This document shows positions 19,811-62,948 of a DNA stretch of 64,000 nucleotides, piece by piece (within the stretch, counting starts at the first letter, position 1; every line of letters begins with the position of its first letter). A program made the position numbers and the translations under genes. Location: positions 4,340,001 through 4,404,000 of the forward strand of contig NZ_CP109130.1 in assembly GCF_035917975.1 (NCBI RefSeq), in the 5' to 3' direction. The notes beneath the pieces were generated by a model, which saw only the letters and a program-made list of their open reading frames with translations, did no database searches and was not told the origin of the DNA. Source of the DNA: Streptosporangium sp. NBC_01756 (lineage in GTDB: Bacteria > Actinomycetota > Actinomycetes > Streptosporangiales > Streptosporangiaceae).

Positions 19811-19899
19811 GGAGAGCTCGCCTAGTGGACGATGGCGGCGGTCTTGAAAACCGCTAGGGGCTTTGCGGCTCCTCGTGGGTTCGAATCCCACGCTCTCCG
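19811..19899 (+). tRNA. tRNA-Ser, anticodon UGA
   Basis: The acceptor strands GGAGAGC (19811-19817) and GCTCTCC (19892-19898) pair fully, with discriminator G at 19899. The anticodon stem GCGGT/ACCGC encloses CTTGAAA, giving anticodon TGA. A long variable arm, as expected for class II tRNA-Ser, precedes the T arm GTGGG-TTCGAAT-CCCAC. CCA is not encoded. The 3' side is followed by remnants of an integrative element, so the gene has probably served as an attachment site. Confidence 0.96.
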
Positions 19900-20009
19900 C
19901 TCACCTCGCGAAACGGCGCTTGACCAGGGCTTACGGCCCGGTGGGGCGCCGTTGGTCGTTTCCGGGATGTGCAGCCGTAGGCCACCGTGAGCAGCTCTCG
20001 GCCGGTGTT

Positions 20010-20029
20010 CGCGGGATATGCGCGGGATG
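20010..20029 (+). repeat. Arm-type direct repeat, left copy
   Basis: CGCGGGATATGCGCGGGATG is found again at 22407-22426 with one mismatch (T for C in the middle). It contains the sub-repeat GCGGGAT twice. Such paired short repeats next to a tRNA resemble arm-type binding sites of tyrosine recombinases. Confidence 0.55.
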
Positions 20030-20061
20030 GATCTTGAGGTGTTTCCCCAGGTCGCGCCCGC

Positions 20062-20093
20062 AAAAAAGAAGAGGCCCCGCGATGCGCGGGACC
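20062..20093 (-). terminator. Intrinsic terminator of the integrase remnant
   Basis: Read on the minus strand, GGTCCCGCG, a 3-nt loop and CGCGGGGCC form a stem with one mismatch, followed by CTTCTTTTTT. It lies 18 bp beyond the stop of the recombinase remnant and is one of few U-tract terminators in the window, suggesting acquired DNA. Confidence 0.75.
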
Positions 20094-20111
20094 CCTTGAG
20101 CGTACCTATGA

Positions 20112-20740
20112 TCATGCCGCGAGTGCGTCGTCTATCCGCTGGTTGGCGATCTCCGTGCCCCCGTCGATGCACTTGGCATAGACCCGAAGCAGCACGTCCA
20201 CCCCGTGCCCTGCCCGCTCGGCCACGTCGGGAGCGGCAACACCCGCGTTGAGCCAGAGGGACACCGCCGCATGTCGCAGGTCGTACGGCCGGGCCGCCAG
20301 AGGTGAGACCTGCTGTTCGGGAGTCAGGGCGAAGGTCCGAGCCGCCTTCCACACCTCGCAGTAGGCCCCAATGGAGATCACGCCACCGCGAGAGCTACGG
20401 AACAGCCGGCCGTCCTCGTGGACGCCGAACTCTTGGATGTGCTCCCGGAGGATGGCCACCAGCTCAGGCGAGACCGGAACGGGACGGCCCTCGTCCCCGG
20501 CCCGGTGCTTCAGGCCCCGATCGTCGTGAGCCGCCCCACTGTCGGTCCACTTCTTGTTCGTCTGCGGCTTGGACCTGGTCAGGACGAGCAGTCCCCAACC
20601 GGTCGCCGGGAGGTGACAGTCCTGCTTGCGGAGCCCGAACGCTTCAGCTGGACGGAGACCGGAGAAGTAGAGACGGGCGAAGAAACCCCGCAGGTGCCGA
20701 CCACGGTCGAGGGGCGGCAGCGCTGAGCGCCGTCGCCCGG
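20112..20740 (-). pseudogene. Tyrosine-recombinase (phage/ICE integrase) catalytic domain, 5' truncated
   Basis: The frame holds about 205 residues of the C-terminal catalytic domain. It has the first catalytic Arg in FSGLRPAEAFGLR, the second in PYDLRHAAVSLWL, and the His and nucleophile Tyr in ERAGHGVDVLLRVYAK. The core-binding N-terminal domain is missing: upstream of about 20740 the reading becomes random Arg/Pro-rich sequence, though the frame stays open to 21140. An intact relative would have about 380-450 residues. It lies 210 bp from tRNA-Ser(UGA), facing it, as actinobacterial integrases usually do. Inferred to be inactive. Confidence 0.82.
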
Positions 20741-21247
20741 CCCTGCGCCTGCACCGCACGCCGGGCATGCGGCCTGGGGGCCGGTCCCGGCGTGCGGCAG
20801 GACTCCGGGCCGTCACCACACGCACCCCGCGCCGACCAGGCTCTACGCACCGGTACGGTACGCGCCGCCGCCTCGCTACGGTGCTTACCGGCCCTTCGGT
20901 CTTGGGGGGAGAACTCGCCTTCAAAACCGAAGAGCCCACGTACGGGTCCGTGGTGATGGACAAGCTGACAGCGCTGATGCCAGCGGACATGTCGGCTTCG
21001 GACACCTGCGAATCGACCGGCCGCTCGGCAATACGGCGGCCGACGTGATCGTGATCGCCCGCCGCCACAGCGCCGATGAGGTCCGGACACGACTCGCCGC
21101 CAACGCCACATTCAATAGGAAGATCCCCGAAGCGCGCCAATTTGTGAGGACCGTGTGCGTTCGTCGTATCCGGCCAGTTCCCGCCCGGGCCAGGTCACCC
21201 GCAGGAGACCAGGCCCGGACCGATCCATGCGGGACCAGGGGCCTTGA
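20741..21247. other. Degenerate region, no intact gene
   Basis: About 500 bp between the truncated recombinase and the SapA-like gene. Short open frames exist but none has family character. One stretch (about 20990-21140) reads RIDRPLGNTAADVIVIARR and HSADEVRTRLAANATFNRK, which looks protein-like but is broken; I could not name it. Probably decayed element DNA. Confidence 0.5.
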
Positions 21248-21646
21248 TCAGCCGCAGTGCTCAAGGGGCGAGGTGTAACCGATGGATCCGTAAACGCCGC
21301 CCCATTCGATGCACTTCCCCTTGGCGGAGAGCTTCACCGGGCCGGCGTAAGTCGAGTAGTAATCGGCGTCACCTAGGTAAGATCCTCCTTGCACGACAAG
21401 GTAGACCCCGACCCACTCGGTGTTGGGGCTGTCCTTCCAGGTGACCACGCAGTTGGTGGTGCCGTTGTACATCAGGTAGATGGTGGCTTTGCCCAGGTCG
21501 TGCTGGTCGATCACGTGGTAGGAGCCGCCGCCGCAGGCCGCGATCGGCGTCGATGCCGCCATCGCCGGGCTGCCGGTGGCGAGGGTTCCGGCGAGCGCGG
21601 CCACGGTGGCGACTGCGAGCGCGGCTCCCTGCTTGAATCTGCGCAC
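21248..21646 (-). CDS. Secreted protein similar to spore-associated protein A
   Basis: With GTG at 21646 (AGGAG seven bases before it) the product has 132 residues. The signal peptide is MRRFKQGAALAVATVAALAG and ends near ATGSPAMAA (cleavage about residue 30). The mature part of about 100 residues has four Cys (ACGGGSYHVI, NCVVT, KCIEW, EHCG), enough for two disulfides. The pattern fits the small SapA-like secreted proteins of sporulating actinomycetes, whose biochemical role is unclear. A longer frame begins at 21688 but would bury the signal peptide. It stands alone in element-like DNA. Confidence 0.75.
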   Translation of the reverse strand: MRRFKQGAALAVATVAALAGTLATGSPAMAASTPIAACGGGSYHVIDQHDLGKATIYLMYNGTTNCVVTWKDSPNTEWVGVYLVVQGGSYLGDADYYSTYAGPVKLSAKGKCIEWGGVYGSIGYTSPLEHCG

Positions 21647-22360
21647 AGAAAATCTCCTGAGGGGCGTCGTTCGGCGAGGCGCGATCATCTATAGCCGCGC
21701 ACCCCGCCGGCCGGCAGACGTCGAGGTACGCGCACCCTGGTGGTGGCGCCCTGACGGAAGACGACCGGGCAGGCCGGACCTGTGGCAGAGGTCGTCAAGT
21801 CCCATGGTCCCGGCGGCTACATTTGATCACTTACATGCATGTTATACATTCGCGTTATGTATTCGTCAAGGTTAGGTAAAGTCTTGTTCTCATTGGCCGT
21901 CCTGTCTGGGTGAAATATCCGTTCGTGCAGGTGAGAACCACTGGTCTCTGCTGCGTGATACCGAGAGGTGCCGTTCTCCTGCGGACCCATCTCCCTGGTC
22001 ATGCTCATGTCTCGCACGGCATCGATCATCAGGGGGTCCGGCTCTGGAGTGGTGATCGGGTCGGAGCGCCGGCCGTACCACCACAGCCCGCACGATCGCC
22101 ACGTCATGGCCGGCCGCCGTACGGGGTCGAGGGCGATCGACGGTCAGGGACTTCGTTCCGCAGCCCCTGACCACCGGGTAGCGTGGCCGGCCACGGCTCA
22201 CCCTGGCAGCAGGGTACGCACACCGGAGATTGCCGAAGACCGTAGCGAGAGAGCCAGATTCCAAGATCCGGACCATGCCCGGAGCGCTTCCCTTGGACTG
22301 GATCAAGACAGCATCCAAAGCGCCAGGTCAGAGCGCCGCGAAGGCCAATAAGCGCCATCC

Positions 22361-22380
22361 ACTTTTAATCCGCAGGTTCT
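22361..22380 (+). other. tRNA-Lys-like fragment, candidate attachment core
   Basis: ACTTTTAATCCGCAGGTTCT matches the anticodon-loop-to-T-arm part of tRNA-Lys(UUU), where the loop reads CTTTTAA and is followed by TCCGCAGGTTC or similar. No other part of a tRNA is present. Integrating elements often carry such a piece as the att core. It lies 26 bp before the second arm-type repeat. Confidence 0.5.
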
Positions 22381-22406
22381 AAGCGGGATCGTGGCGTTTT
22401 CAGCCT

Positions 22407-22426
22407 CGCGGGATATGTGCGGGATG
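22407..22426 (+). repeat. Arm-type direct repeat, right copy
   Basis: CGCGGGATATGTGCGGGATG, 19 of 20 bases identical to 20010-20029, same orientation, 2,397 bp away. It follows the tRNA-Lys-like core. The two copies bracket the recombinase remnant and the SapA-like gene. Confidence 0.55.
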
Positions 22427-22548
22427 ATGCAGGTCTTGTTCTCCCGGGTCGCCGTCGCTGTCAGGCGGTTTGGGACAGTGCCGTCGAAGCAGGGACCTGA
22501 CGGAGCTTGCTGTTGGATCTGAGGCATGGAACAGCCGTGAAGCCTCGT

Positions 22549-23070
22549 TCAGGCGGGAAGGTCCTTGGCCAAGACGATGCTGTCGTAGTTGGTGACTCCC
22601 CACTTCCATGTCCCGATCGACGTGTAGCCGTGCCGGCCGTACCAGGCGATGAGATCGGTGGCCTGTGCGGAAGTATCGATCACTATCTTCGACGCGCCCA
22701 GGGCGGTGATGCGAGTTTCGGCCAAGGTCAGGAGGCGATGTCCCAAGCCGGTTCCCCGCCGGGCCGGATCCACCGCCAGCTGCCAGAACGATCCCGCATG
22801 GACCGGCGCCGGATATCCAGGCGGAGTGTCGTATGTCCCTGTCACCGTGACACTGCCAACGATCGTTCCCCGCTCCAGGGCAACCCAGCACTCTCCTTTG
22901 CCCAGGCGCCGCAGCGTGTCCTCAGGGGTCTGGTAGGAGGCGAAGAAGACGAGCCCGGCGGCTGCATGATCCGCATAAGCGCGGTGCAGAAGCACGGTCA
23001 GCTCTTCCACCGAGTCATCTTCGATGAAGCGTCGTATGACGACCGGTTCCGCGGAATCTGGCTGTCTCAC
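22549..23070 (-). CDS. GNAT-family N-acetyltransferase
   Basis: A 173-residue protein with the GNAT fold. Motif A, which binds acetyl-CoA, is QLAVDPARRGTGLGHRLL near residues 97-114 (R/Q-x-x-G-x-G/A loop RRGTGLG). The beta-4 strand GTIVGSVTVTG precedes it and motif B is IDTSAQATDLIAWYGRHGY. The substrate is unknown. It starts at GTG 23070 and stands alone, with 261 bp of gene-free sequence before the next gene. Confidence 0.88.
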   Translation of the reverse strand: MRQPDSAEPVVIRRFIEDDSVEELTVLLHRAYADHAAAGLVFFASYQTPEDTLRRLGKGECWVALERGTIVGSVTVTGTYDTPPGYPAPVHAGSFWQLAVDPARRGTGLGHRLLTLAETRITALGASKIVIDTSAQATDLIAWYGRHGYTSIGTWKWGVTNYDSIVLAKDLPA

Positions 23071-23331
23071 GGTGTCCTTTCCCGAAGATCATTCCAGCGC
23101 GCCGGCTTGATTGTCCGGCACCCCGCCACCCCACATGGGCGGCATGGTGGCCGGGTGCAGCGCGATCACCTGGTACCGGAGCCGGGACCGACCGGCAGGT
23201 CAACGGCGAGCAGGTGCGGCAGATCAGACCCGGTTCGCCCCGGCCCTTCCCTCTGCGGACCCGGCTTCAGCGTGCGCGATCTATCAGGTGACGTGAGATG
23301 GCGCGGTGAGTCTGGGATTGTGCCACCAGGA

Positions 23332-23967
23332 TCAGCTTCGCTGGATGCCGACGAGCAGGATGTCCGCGAGTTTGTCGGCGTAGTCGTCAGGGTCGATGTG
23401 GGGGCCGTTGGTTCCGAGGTATCCGATCATCATGTCGATCGCGCCTTGATAGGTGATGGCCATCACGCGGGTGTCGAAGTCGCGCAGGGTTCCCTCGGCT
23501 TGGCCGCGTCGGAACAGCGATTCCTGTGCTTGGTAGGTCTCTTCGTAGGCGTCAGGCGTCAGGCGCGGTGTGCCATCGGGGTGACGCAGGTTGTGCGCGA
23601 TGTGGTTGAGCGCGGTGAGTTCTCCCCGGTGGGTGACGGTCAAGGCCGCAGCTCGGCGTAGGGCCGCGCGAATGATGTCCGGGACGGGCTCGGTCAGGTC
23701 GAGCGAGTTCGCGATGCGGTCGCGGATGGTGGTCATCGTCGCTTTGGCAGTGGACTCCATCAGGTCGTCCTTGTCGGCGAAGTAGTGCCAGAGCAGGCCC
23801 TTGGAAACGCCGGCCCGCTCGGCGACGCGAGTCAACGACAGGCCGTCGTAACCGCAGTCGGCGAGCTCCTCCACGGCTGCGGTCATGATCTGTGCCCGGC
23901 GTTGATTCTCGTCGAGTCGACGCCGACGCGCACCCGACCCTGTGGTTTGTGAGGACGAAGTGGTCAT
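23332..23967 (-). CDS. TetR-family transcriptional regulator
   Basis: A 211-residue protein. The helix-turn-helix is seen as IMTAAVEELADCGYDGLSL, TRVAERAGVSKGLLWHYF and ADKDDLM. The C-terminal ligand domain has TALNHIAHNLRHPDGTPRL. ATG at 23967 lies 4 bp after the stop of the membrane-protein gene, so both form one transcript. Two perfect 7-4-7 palindromes at the start of the upstream gene are the likely operators, making this an autoregulated operon. The inducer is unknown; the partner membrane protein gives no clear hint. Confidence 0.9.
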   Translation of the reverse strand: MTTSSSQTTGSGARRRRLDENQRRAQIMTAAVEELADCGYDGLSLTRVAERAGVSKGLLWHYFADKDDLMESTAKATMTTIRDRIANSLDLTEPVPDIIRAALRRAAALTVTHRGELTALNHIAHNLRHPDGTPRLTPDAYEETYQAQESLFRRGQAEGTLRDFDTRVMAITYQGAIDMMIGYLGTNGPHIDPDDYADKLADILLVGIQRS

Positions 23968-23971
23968 GCCG

Positions 23972-24424
23972 TCACCGCGGATCGTTGGTCTGGTCATCGG
24001 CGACCGGCTGACGGTTCCGGCGAACCCGGATTGACAGGATCGCAAGGGTCAGCATCATCGCGGCGATGACGAGCATCTCGACGCGCATCCACGCAGGGAA
24101 GACGCCAGGCAGCGCGGCTTCGACGAGATTCACCACCAGCAGGACGCATCCGATGATGGTGAGTGCACGCAGGCCGGAGGGGCTCCCTTTGAGTGCGGCG
24201 CGCGTCCGCACGGGTAGCACGATCGCGAACACGGCGACGATCACGGCGTGACCCCATGCCTCTGAGGTCGCCAGATGTGGTGCCGTCGCCGCCAGGACGG
24301 CCAGGGCCACCAACGTGCCCAAGGCCACGACCACGTAGGCGGCTACCAGTCGTTTCACCCTTGCGAGCGGTACAGACGTGAGCGATGCCGACCCGAGCTC
24401 ATCTCTTTCAATCCTATTGACCAT
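23972..24424 (-). CDS. Four-helix integral membrane protein of unknown function
   Basis: A 150-residue protein with a charged N terminus (MVNRIERDELG) and four hydrophobic segments: VAAYVVVALGTLVALAVLAA, WGHAVIVAVFAIVLPV, ALTIIGCVLLVVNLVEAAL and VEMLVIAAMMLTLAIL. No catalytic motif is visible. ATG at 24424 lies inside one operator palindrome and has no Shine-Dalgarno, so the transcript may be leaderless. It is the first gene of the TetR operon. It could be a small exporter or stress-responsive membrane protein, but nothing in the sequence decides this. Confidence 0.72.
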   Translation of the reverse strand: MVNRIERDELGSASLTSVPLARVKRLVAAYVVVALGTLVALAVLAATAPHLATSEAWGHAVIVAVFAIVLPVRTRAALKGSPSGLRALTIIGCVLLVVNLVEAALPGVFPAWMRVEMLVIAAMMLTLAILSIRVRRNRQPVADDQTNDPR

Positions 24425-24460
24425 GCGGTCAATACTATCCCAATTGACCGCGTGGTCAAT
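24416..24460. promoter_or_regulatory. Twin TetR operator palindromes
   Basis: ATTGACC-ATGC-GGTCAAT (24416-24433) and ATTGACC-GCGT-GGTCAAT (24443-24460) are perfect 7-4-7 inverted repeats, 27 bp apart centre to centre. The first covers the start codon of the membrane-protein gene and the second lies over its presumed promoter. Confidence 0.85.
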
Positions 24461-24768
24461 AGACGGGGGGTGGGGGTGCCTGACCGGTGAGCTCGCCGGG
24501 GGAGCAGAGGTGCATCGGCGGTCGAGGTGTGGTTGTGCGGCACGAGCGGCCCCCGGCTGCATCCGATAAGGCGGTTTCTGCGCATACCGATCGGCCTGTC
24601 CGCCGTGGGCGAGGAGTGTTTATTCTTGATCAGCAAGTTGCGTGATCCGGCGTCTGACTCTCGGCTCTGAACTCCGGGACCCGGCCCGTGACCGCGGCCG
24701 ATCTCGCCGTGATGCTCCCACTCGCCCGAGGTCGCAGAGAACGGCGGTGCGGCCGGAAGGAGGAGCCG
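24461..24768. other. Intergenic region, no gene seen
   Basis: About 300 bp between the TetR-controlled operon and the truncated AraC gene. It contains no convincing open frame or RNA. The right end holds AAGGAGGAG (24757-24765), the ribosome binding site of the AraC remnant. Confidence 0.5.
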
Positions 24769-60161: not shown

Positions 60162-60250
60162 GGAGGCTTCGCCTAGTCCGGTCTATGGCGCCGCACTGCT
60201 AATGCGGTTTGGCAGCAATGCCATCGGGAGTTCAAATCTCCCAGCCTCCG
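60162..60250 (+). tRNA. tRNA-Ser, anticodon GCU
   Basis: GGAGGCT (60162-60168) pairs with AGCCTCC (60243-60249), with discriminator G at 60250. The anticodon stem CCGCA/TGCGG encloses CTGCTAA, giving anticodon GCT. A long variable arm precedes GGGAG-TTCAAAT-CTCCC. CCA is not encoded. A terminator follows at once, and beyond it are arm-type repeats and mobile-element debris, so the gene has probably been an integration site. Confidence 0.96.
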
Positions 60251-60259
60251 CAGGTCAGA

Positions 60260-62113: not shown

Positions 62114-62299
62114 ACCGGGGCGTCCTGGCCAGCTCGTGCCCGGCTGTGAGCTGGATTTACCGGTGAGAACGCACGGACATGCCGCAGAGCGTGAGCGTCG
62201 CCCGGTTCGGAACAGCCAGGACTGTCAAGCATGTCCCGAGACAGGACATTTGATCACGCCAACACACACTGCCGAATTGTTCTCATAGGTATCAAGGGC

Positions 62300-62825
62300 G
62301 GCGCTCCGCGCAGCCAGTTCGGGCAGGCCGGAGAGCAGGGTTCGTAGCGGAGTGCTTCGACCATCCGGGCCGCGTGCTGGTGCTGGTGCTGGGCGGGGTT
62401 GTCGGTGTCGAGGGTGTCGCCGAGGCTCTTGGTCAGGTACTTGGACAGGTAGCGGATGCACTGGTCGGCGTCGGGGGTGCCGGCGAGGATGCCCTGCACG
62501 TCGACTTGGGGGCCGAAGCGGACCACGTGTAGGGGTTCGGTCTTGTCGTCGGTGTCGAGCCGGTCGAGTGCCTCCCGCCAGGTCGGCAGGAGTTCTTCGG
62601 TGGCCGGGTCGAGGTAGTCGCCGTCTTGACCGTCTGAGTAAGTCTTTCCGTCGGGAAGGTCGGCCCGCGGCGTCCATACCGGCAGGTGATCGCCGTCGAA
62701 CTTGACCTCGTCGACGGATGGCCACCACACCTGGTGATAGGTGGCCGCGGCGATGGCCTTGATCCCCGCGCGTGGCATGGTGCCCCGTACGGCCATGTGC
62801 AGGTGCGGGGCGAGCCGTTTTTGTG
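62300..62825 (-). pseudogene. RepSA-type replication initiator, internal fragment
   Basis: On the minus strand this reads LAPHLHMAVRGTMPRAGIKA, then YHQVWWPSVDEV, VVRFGPQVDVQGILAGTPDA, QCIRYLSKYLTKSLGDTLD and VEALRYEPCSPACPNWLR. This is the central part of the replication initiator of pSAM2-like integrative and conjugative elements (AICEs). Both ends are missing: the left joins IS3 orfB sequence near 62825, the right becomes random after NWLR. No other AICE gene is nearby. The intact protein would be about 450-500 residues. Confidence 0.82.
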
Positions 62826-62948
62826 GGAGGCCGGCCGCTCACGCCATTCGTAGTAGCCCGAGCGGGAAACGCCCAGCCAGGCGCACATCTTCATGATCGG
62901 ATGGCAGGCCTTCTCCGCATCGATGAGCTCGTACTTGGCGAGCGTCAT
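62826..62948 (-). pseudogene. IS3-family OrfB transposase, N-terminal fragment
   Basis: ATG at 62948 overlaps the stop of OrfA. About 40 residues remain, with the OrfB helix-turn-helix start MCAWLGVSRSGYYEWRERP. The DDE catalytic domain is gone; the frame continues by chance into the antisense of another reading of the Rep fragment. It shows where the IS was broken and joined to AICE DNA. Confidence 0.82.

Follow-up and report, generated by a model that had tools for sequence, protein, structure and literature searches.

The stretch of DNA analyzed here, called the window throughout, comprises 64,000 nucleotides of Streptosporangium sp. NBC_01756 (contig NZ_CP109130.1, positions 4,340,001 to 4,404,000; G000:C1:4340001-4404000 in our numbering, in which G denotes genomes and L loci) and belongs to a genome of 9.0 Mb in a single contig. 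At least two dead mobile elements with different tRNA gene targets lie in pieces beside its tRNA-Ser(UGA) gene, over positions 19811 to 22426. A preliminary description, made from the letters alone, had proposed a decayed integrative element at this tRNA gene, and the integrase fragment, attachment (att) core, and arm sites described below bear this out. The locus is probably the remnant of an accretion of pSAM2-type actinomycete integrative and conjugative elements (AICEs), in which the initiator RepSA joined a replication origin to a look-alike sequence in the integrase gene (int).

A truncated integrase beside tRNA-Ser(UGA)

The tRNA-Ser(UGA) attachment gene was located with ARAGORN at 19811 to 19900 on the plus strand. 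On the minus strand, at 20112 to 20711, lies a 5'-truncated Ser-type tyrosine recombinase reduced to its C-terminal 199 residues, which, read from 20711, correspond to residues 165 to 363 of the L053 integrase at 87% identity. Its end at 20112 is 211 bp from the tRNA gene, in agreement with the truncated recombinase reported at 210 bp in the preliminary description, and the U-tract terminator reported there was recovered as a terminator-like hairpin behind the integrase (20097 to 20069, minus strand; 13-bp stem and T-tract), such sites numbering 2 in the stretch versus 1.2 expected from shuffles. Full-length integrases adjoin the tRNA gene in L040, L041, L047, and L048. The integrase beside tRNA-Arg(UCU) of the same genome (L036) is 76% identical in DNA to that of the window, from which it follows that related integrases serve different tRNA genes.

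Together, the fragment and the Ser-type core (19842 to 19900, plus strand) present the arrangement by which AICEs are recognized, a tyrosine integrase next to an att site in a tRNA 3' end. A tblastn search with the L041 RepSA found no RepSA in 19811 to 22426, and the locus was therefore classed as a remnant, not as an AICE; tblastn did recover RepSA in L039, L040, L041, L047, and L048, and fragments of it in L053 and at 62.3 kb of the window. No FtsK/TraB-type translocase was noted among the window open reading frames (ORFs) of the stretch, for which no profile search was made.

Of the 12 genus-mates whose locus was retrieved, 9 (G001, G002, G004, G005, G006, G009, G011, G012, and G015) have the segment from 19842 to about 20055 a second time, at the far end of the inserted DNA; this copy is on another contig in G011 and is truncated by the limit of the retrieved sequence in G005. 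Because the segment recurs at far element ends from 19842 onward, the Ser-type core was taken to start at CTTGAAAA in the anticodon loop and to run to the tRNA 3' end. A 20-bp direct repeat, GCGGGATATGYGCGGGATG, recorded in the preliminary description as a one-mismatch pair, is present at 20011 and 22408, its only matches in the 64 kb at up to three mismatches (0.06 expected by chance). Its first copy sits 167 bp after the Ser core start, with the same spacing in G002, and in G002, G005, G006, and G009, the motif is found once more, some 75 bp ahead of the far tRNA-Ser core. Occurring before the far core, and also beyond the core in the window and other genomes, the repeat was ruled out as the att core; from its positions relative to the tRNA-Ser cores, we read it as an arm-type integrase site (P' arm; 20009 to 20029, plus strand). 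The second copy (22406 to 22426, plus strand) is the leftover of another Ser-type att site: window positions 22406 to 23102 are 91% identical to 3060-2364 of L037 in G002, where the site is 167 bp from a second tRNA-Ser core start, and the tRNA-Ser core expected to the left of 22406 is gone from the window.

The integrase fragment is fused to a predicted replication origin

Homology to intact integrases ends at 20711, and a different conserved block, block A, starts at 20712 to 20714. The junction (20707 to 20711, minus strand) reads CTCG|A on the bottom strand, and block A (20712 to 20834, minus strand) is composed of GC-rich hairpins. The edge of the block, on the bottom strand, is GCGCCGCC-GCCTTG-ATACCYATAAGAACAATTCGGCA; in the window copy, the flank beyond the predicted nick is missing. 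In L041, the order is this site, NUDIX, GntR, GntR, a tra-like frame, RepSA (PF20199; E value, 5e-100), Int, and tRNA-Ser; the tra-like frame, read by eye as Walker-A bearing and translocase-like, looks frameshifted. The preliminary description had noted the truncation of the integrase, while its junction with the predicted origin, and the cargo lying inside the origin region, had gone unrecognized.

CTTG^ATA is, as we take it, the nick motif of pC194/phiX174-type origins. Across the genus, the hairpin and loop of block A are conserved next to the predicted nick motif, in association with RepSA elements. RepSA is stated in PMC3218068 to nick the double-strand origin (dso) of pSAM2, and a remark there assigns pSAM2, on account of the nick site, to the pC194 family. 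The motif and these statements led us to read block A as the putative rolling-circle dso of pSAM2-type AICEs, with the window's CTCG|A as the equivalent of the predicted nick, CTTG^A. Both CTTG and, after it, a flank containing AATTCGGCA (at most 2 mismatches) are kept in 51 of 81 genus copies; this flank has been lost from the window copy. At the position of the junction, the intact Ser-type integrases of L040, L041, L047, L048, and L053 read CTCG, and L029, a sixth and more distant one, reads CCCT; the fused copy in L049 reads CTTG as in the dso.

Breaks concentrate at the predicted nick in the genus Streptosporangium

The genus was surveyed with the exact loop motif of block A, which lies about 55 bases from the nick. 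Every one of the 16 genus genomes contained the motif, in 81 exact copies altogether, and a reversed-pattern control gave no hits. Among the 81 copies, 51 have the common flank, 4 have a second native flank type, 1 ends at a contig end, and 25 are left; a loose pattern had called 52 copies native, L236 wrongly, and the 24 others plus L236 make up the 25 that were aligned. Alignment to the flank-bearing copies ended at nick positions 0 to +2 in 9 of these 25 (1.1 expected), corresponding to a P value of 9e-7 under a uniform break over 66 positions, or 7e-6 without the doubtful L207, and all 51 flank-bearing controls aligned to at least +21. L207, L222, and L237 may be native variants. A separate hairpin-based survey, overlapping the loop-motif set, gave 47 copies, 35 of them with the flank.

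By eye, 12 of the 25 copies were judged to be joined at the nick, namely, the nine found by the aligner minus L207, plus L242 (+5), the window (-3), L039 (-3), and L236 (-10). CTTG is not retained in L225 (CTGG), L039 (CTCA), or the window (CTCG). Ten of the 12 run into an integrase, one (L232) runs into RepSA, and one (L039) runs into DNA to which no identity was assigned. The integrase was named by Pfam (E value, <1e-4) in L225, L236, L242, and L244 and by blastp to Ser-type integrases (57 to 90%) in the window, L049, L206, L171, and L239, while the call for L204 rests only on 69% similarity to L242. The integrase ends have the same orientation in every identified case. Between nick and att in L041, rep takes up 23% of the length and int 15%, and 11 of 11 identified ends fall in one or the other (P value, 2e-5 under a uniform model, with the window and L049, which may be one event, counted apart). 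Outside the 25-copy set, L042:10922, L143, and perhaps L106 join int, L128 joins RepSA, and L137 joins DNA without an assignment. The genome of the window contains further AICE origins: that of L171 (G000:4877627) is fused at the nick to part of an integrase, and that of L083 (G000:5019060) still has its native flank.

Breaks in other genera and reciprocal ends

In a draw of 200 genomes from the family, 11 of them from the genus, the loop motif was present in 99, with 5 reversed-pattern control hits. The 70 copies examined outside the genus are those whose locus sequence was available, not all of those found. The common flank was present in 44 of the 70 and missing from 26, of which 11 end at 0 to +2 of the nick. 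Widening the interval to between -3 and +9 takes in 18 of the 26; 11 of these run into an integrase and 1 into an excisionase-like HTH_17 protein. Eight of these ends (7 integrases and the HTH protein) were identified by profile or blastp (L386, L397, L399, L414, L416, L420, L433, and L440), and four integrase ends were called by eye or weak similarity (L385, L391, L422, and L446).

Joining at the nick should also yield reciprocal ends. Among the loci, 71 distinct copies of the post-nick motif were found, 15 of them without the loop, and 8 of these 15 without the hairpin as judged by eye; of these 8, 5 meet other DNA at an end resembling CTNG or CCTG. In these five (L338, L361, L365, L366, and L369), only the post-nick flank is kept, with other DNA meeting it at CTNG|A or CCTG|A, as expected of reciprocal products. 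When the left sides of the reciprocal copies were searched by tblastn with five L041 proteins, only RepSA was found, at 62.3 kb of the window, joined about 15 bases before the nick. This RepSA fragment (62254 to 62886, minus strand), 70% identical to residues 376-577 of the L041 RepSA, runs into the dso nick flank CTTGATACCTATGAGAACAATTCGGCA near a tRNA-Ser(GCU) gene at 60162 to 60251, and the window thus contains the relic of a second AICE.

A right arm and core of tRNA-Lys/Arg type

Toward the right end of the locus, the piece ACTTTTAATCCGCAGGTTCT (22361 to 22380, plus strand) equals the tRNA-Lys(UUU) gene of the genome (G000:3885040-3885114) at 19 of 20 positions; the preliminary description had called it tRNA-Lys(UUU)-like. 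To its left, window positions 22092 to 22361 align with 204 of 267 bases identical to L042 of G012 (score of 257 versus 43 for the best of 50 shuffles), with 196 of 264 identical to L082, where the alignment continues into the 3' half of tRNA-Arg(UCU) (221 versus 40), and with 148 of 210 identical to L076, where it continues into a complete tRNA-Lys 3' half (108 versus 34); in L090 and L093, the aligned arm also reaches a tRNA-Lys 3' half, more weakly. The match noted earlier thus does extend to a real att core in related elements. The tRNA-Lys-like piece stands above chance because these 270 bp align with the right ends of elements at tRNA 3' halves. For nine of the 14 sequences compared, the score exceeded that of every one of 50 simple shuffles, in some cases by a moderate margin only. 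A degenerate P-arm site of Lys/Arg-type elements, AAGATCCGGA.CATGC.CGGA (22263 to 22284, plus strand), is common to the window and these nine (L042, L050, L076, L082 at tRNA-Arg, L083, L087, L090, L093, and L095), about 95 bp before the anticodon-loop core; in L086, L094, L074, L057, and L058, the arm alignment fails to beat the shuffles, and AAGATCCGGA is absent as well.

By these alignments, 22092 to 22361 is the right arm of a tRNA-Lys/Arg-type AICE. The complete tRNA 3' half that would stand behind its core is absent from the window, which diverges after AGGTTCT, and the core is therefore called decayed. Of the two att systems claimed in the preliminary description, the second, tRNA-Lys-type core is indeed joined here, while the 20-bp repeat is read here as an arm-type site. 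A Lys-type arm and core near tRNA-Ser also occur in G012 (L042:8108) and G003 (L050:6476). An integrase-like frame, 45% identical to the L236 integrase, adjoins the intact tRNA-Lys(UUU) of the genome (L034, downstream of 3115), which may therefore house a resident Lys-type element. Another Lys-type att footprint lies at 8.9 Mb of this genome, where a second tRNA-Lys 3' half has no 5' half with it (L003:1501; G000:8906673).

Cargo and a candidate single-strand origin

After an insertion, block A continues in block B (22083 to 22180), which contains an 8-bp inverted repeat that hardly varies, CGATCGCC/GGCGATCG, and a 10-bp hairpin (helix 2) that covaries. In L036, L042, L045, L049, and L053, block B directly adjoins block A; in the window, they are separated by a 1.2-kb insert of cargo (20873 to 22082). 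Base pairs were counted in an alignment of 30 of the 33 block B copies, with L053, L067, and L076 omitted. Changes on both sides of a pair occurred in 35 cells versus 10.2 after shuffling, over both helices and 30 sequences, and were confined to helix 2, where they affect 9 of 10 pairs and 85% of cells are paired; within this helix, 20 sequences leave columns 62-88 unpaired, and 11 leave columns 68-82 unpaired. Block B is structured and, on the nicked strand, is situated 5' of the nick, where most single-strand origins (sso) sit according to statements in PMC5037232 and PMC4595007, and our guess is that it may be the sso. No Rfam family other than tRNA reached its gathering score, sX4 and miRNA hits falling below it.

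The cargo contains a gene for a small secreted protein of 146 aa (21248 to 21688, minus strand), for which no Pfam or NCBIfam family was found. The protein has four cysteines in its mature part and presumably resembles the Streptomyces spore-associated protein SapA. At least four copies exist in the genome (among them G000:3890915-3891696, 4495190-4495868, and 4496154-4496828), one of them 6 kb from the tRNA-Lys gene, and another was found at L042:16058-16764.

Origin of the composite locus

We propose that the locus is a pSAM2-type AICE accretion site at tRNA-Ser(UGA), reduced to 2.6 kb, that would comprise, from left to right, a Ser-type attL, the 3' part of int, the fused dso, the cargo gene, the candidate sso, the right arm of a tRNA-Lys/Arg-type element with its decayed core, and an arm site left from one more Ser-type att site. 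RepSA would cut its own origin at CTTG^A, and the CTTG 3' end would be joined to a CTNGA look-alike inside int, deleting the intervening DNA, which in L041 would mean NUDIX, the two GntR genes, tra, rep, and the 5' part of int. Since int is of Ser type and the end beyond block B is of Lys/Arg type, at least one further exchange between elements would be needed besides deletion inside one element. The composite att remnants, the fusion of int to the predicted origin, and the excess of breaks at one place can be read directly in the DNA; that RepSA makes the joins we infer from the junction statistics.

The identified end points fall in int, rep, or xis, which suggests that the deletions that survive may be those that remove or break rep. 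No end point was identified in tra, kor, or pif, for which the ends without an assignment were not searched by profile. A rep left intact without its regulators would, we propose, keep firing or be lethal, which would explain why survivors end in rep, xis, or int. Extended to the family, the proposal would be that Streptosporangiaceae AICEs are regularly killed by their own initiator, with RepSA joining the CTTG end to downstream CTNGA look-alikes on the same strand, deleting the DNA between, and the survivors ending in rep, xis, or int; we give this an even chance. The odds seem equally balanced that the many dead integrases at tRNA genes are products of the replication machinery, not of slow decay.

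Several observations weigh against initiator-made joins. In the window, the third base of the junction is C, as in the integrase, and the automatic alignment ends at -3, so that the exchange can be placed only within a few bases of the nick and not to the base. The window and L049 share the int position and may represent one ancestral event. The nick position within CTTG^A is itself our presumption, with a remark in PMC3218068 as its sole backing. Breaks fall elsewhere than 0 to +2 in 16 of 25 genus copies and in 15 of 26 copies from other genera, and L207, one of the nine at the nick, resembles a native variant flank. Six of the 18 near-nick copies from other genera do not run into int or xis (L404 enters a Mutator-type transposase; L415, L424, and L438 enter DNA without an assignment; L393 and L432 resemble native flanks). 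Reciprocal ends are few, and their left sides match neither the L041 int nor RepSA except at 62.3 kb of the window. The proposed sso role of block B rests on position and covariation. Finally, a Ser-type int is fused to an origin that leads to a Lys-type end, for which deletion in one element is insufficient.

Ordinary decay, through random deletions and joining at microhomology, would account for the breakpoints lying away from the nick, and a bias of sequence could underlie the coincidence with it, CTNGA being common in GC-rich coding DNA and the joined partners having CT.GA, a short microhomology, in common. AICE decay with partial integrases is also described in PMC9513070. However, microhomology alone does not explain why 3 of the roughly 66 positions of block A received 9 of 25 breakpoints in the genus and 11 of 26 elsewhere, nor why most identified breakpoints enter int in one orientation, and we regard decay of this kind as unlikely. 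The model of the preliminary description, in which a Ser-type element was entered by a second one through site-specific integration at a tRNA-Lys-like core, appears quite unlikely. Its Lys-type core and P arm are real, and both recur near tRNA-Ser in G012 and G003, but CTTTTAATCCG occurs only once in the window, ARAGORN found no tRNA-Lys there (the Lys-type left half was sought in no other way), the Ser-type fragment is the only integrase seen in 19811 to 22426, and the core is cut after AGGTTCT with a Ser-type arm site 26 bp further on.

It is also conceivable, and in our estimate very unlikely, that, instead of a replication origin, blocks A and B form a structured RNA or act as a transfer locus (clt), broken by some other enzyme. 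Their strong hairpins and the covariation of helix 2 would suit such a role, but no Rfam family reached its gathering score for them, the position of block B is that of most sso, and the breaks occur, in RepSA-type elements, at a motif of 4 to 5 bases equal to the presumed pC194/phiX174-type nick motif. RepSA-made joining of the origin to int remains the explanation that we favor.

Relation to known systems

Actinobacterial genomes commonly contain, as fossils beside tRNA genes, integrases that have been truncated, and the cause is usually left at "decay." Recombination at rolling-circle origins has long been known in plasmids, and Michel and Ehrlich reportedly described Rep-mediated illegitimate recombination at such origins with pC194 and M13. 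Those systems are said to share with the present one the origin-nick joins that give deletions; the scars seen here differ in being natural and chromosomal, inside integrated elements, with the identified ends concentrated in int. Abrupt cassette junctions are mentioned in PMC5703833. The staphylococcal dso-qacC-sso plasmids outlined in PMC5037232 likewise have cargo between the dso and a region of hairpins on the 5' side of the nick, but block B is only a candidate sso, and no sequence relationship was shown.

As far as PMC3218068 outlines the pSAM2-type AICEs, with their RepSA, tRNA-targeting integrase, and NUDIX/Pif, L041 resembles them in its Int, RepSA, GntR, NUDIX, and att site at a tRNA 3' end, and the window in its truncated int, att, and predicted origin; the window differs in that all it retains is a fragment of int, parts of the predicted origin, cargo, and remnants of att. 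PMC9513070 describes how AICEs accumulate, exchange modules, and decay at tRNA genes, with successive elements at the same site and remnants that contain a partial integrase, cargo, and direct repeats, as here. The part of that paper available to us gives no mechanism for integrase truncation, whereas the truncation points found here coincide with the predicted origin nick. No description of nick-site scars in integrated AICEs was found in the open literature, mostly at the level of titles and abstracts, and element decay being known, the scar pattern appears to be new. If rolling-circle initiators do make these cuts, the scars would record past origin firing inside chromosomes, account for the loss of the 5' ends of integrases, and offer a direct test of the danger posed by an integrated rolling-circle origin. 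Two att specificities in one remnant would also indicate a possible route to a change of insertion site.

Neighboring DNA and empty-site comparison

A GNAT acetyltransferase gene (22549 to 23070, minus strand) accompanies the att flank in relatives. Window positions 23122 to 24568 (96%) are present in G002 on a different contig, which indicates that the right side has been rearranged in one of the two genomes. In an empty-site comparison, the tRNA-Ser gene was matched almost in full at 77 of 80 named loci, at many of them on the opposite strand; a related integrase lay within 6 kb downstream in 17 of the 77, and the P' block was present in 30 of the 80. When the downstream DNA of 23 loci was compared with the window, only L251 matched besides att, integrase, and origin pieces, through a gene pair with 38% protein identity to 47.6-48.7 kb, and one further short DNA match, of L262 to 62.3 kb, falls on the origin relic there. 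A near-perfect 20-bp inverted repeat, CTATTGACCATGCGGTCAAT, is located at 24414 to 24462, inside the 5' part of an ORF (23972 to 24562, minus strand) that precedes a TetR-type regulator gene (23332 to 24045), and is possibly an operator.

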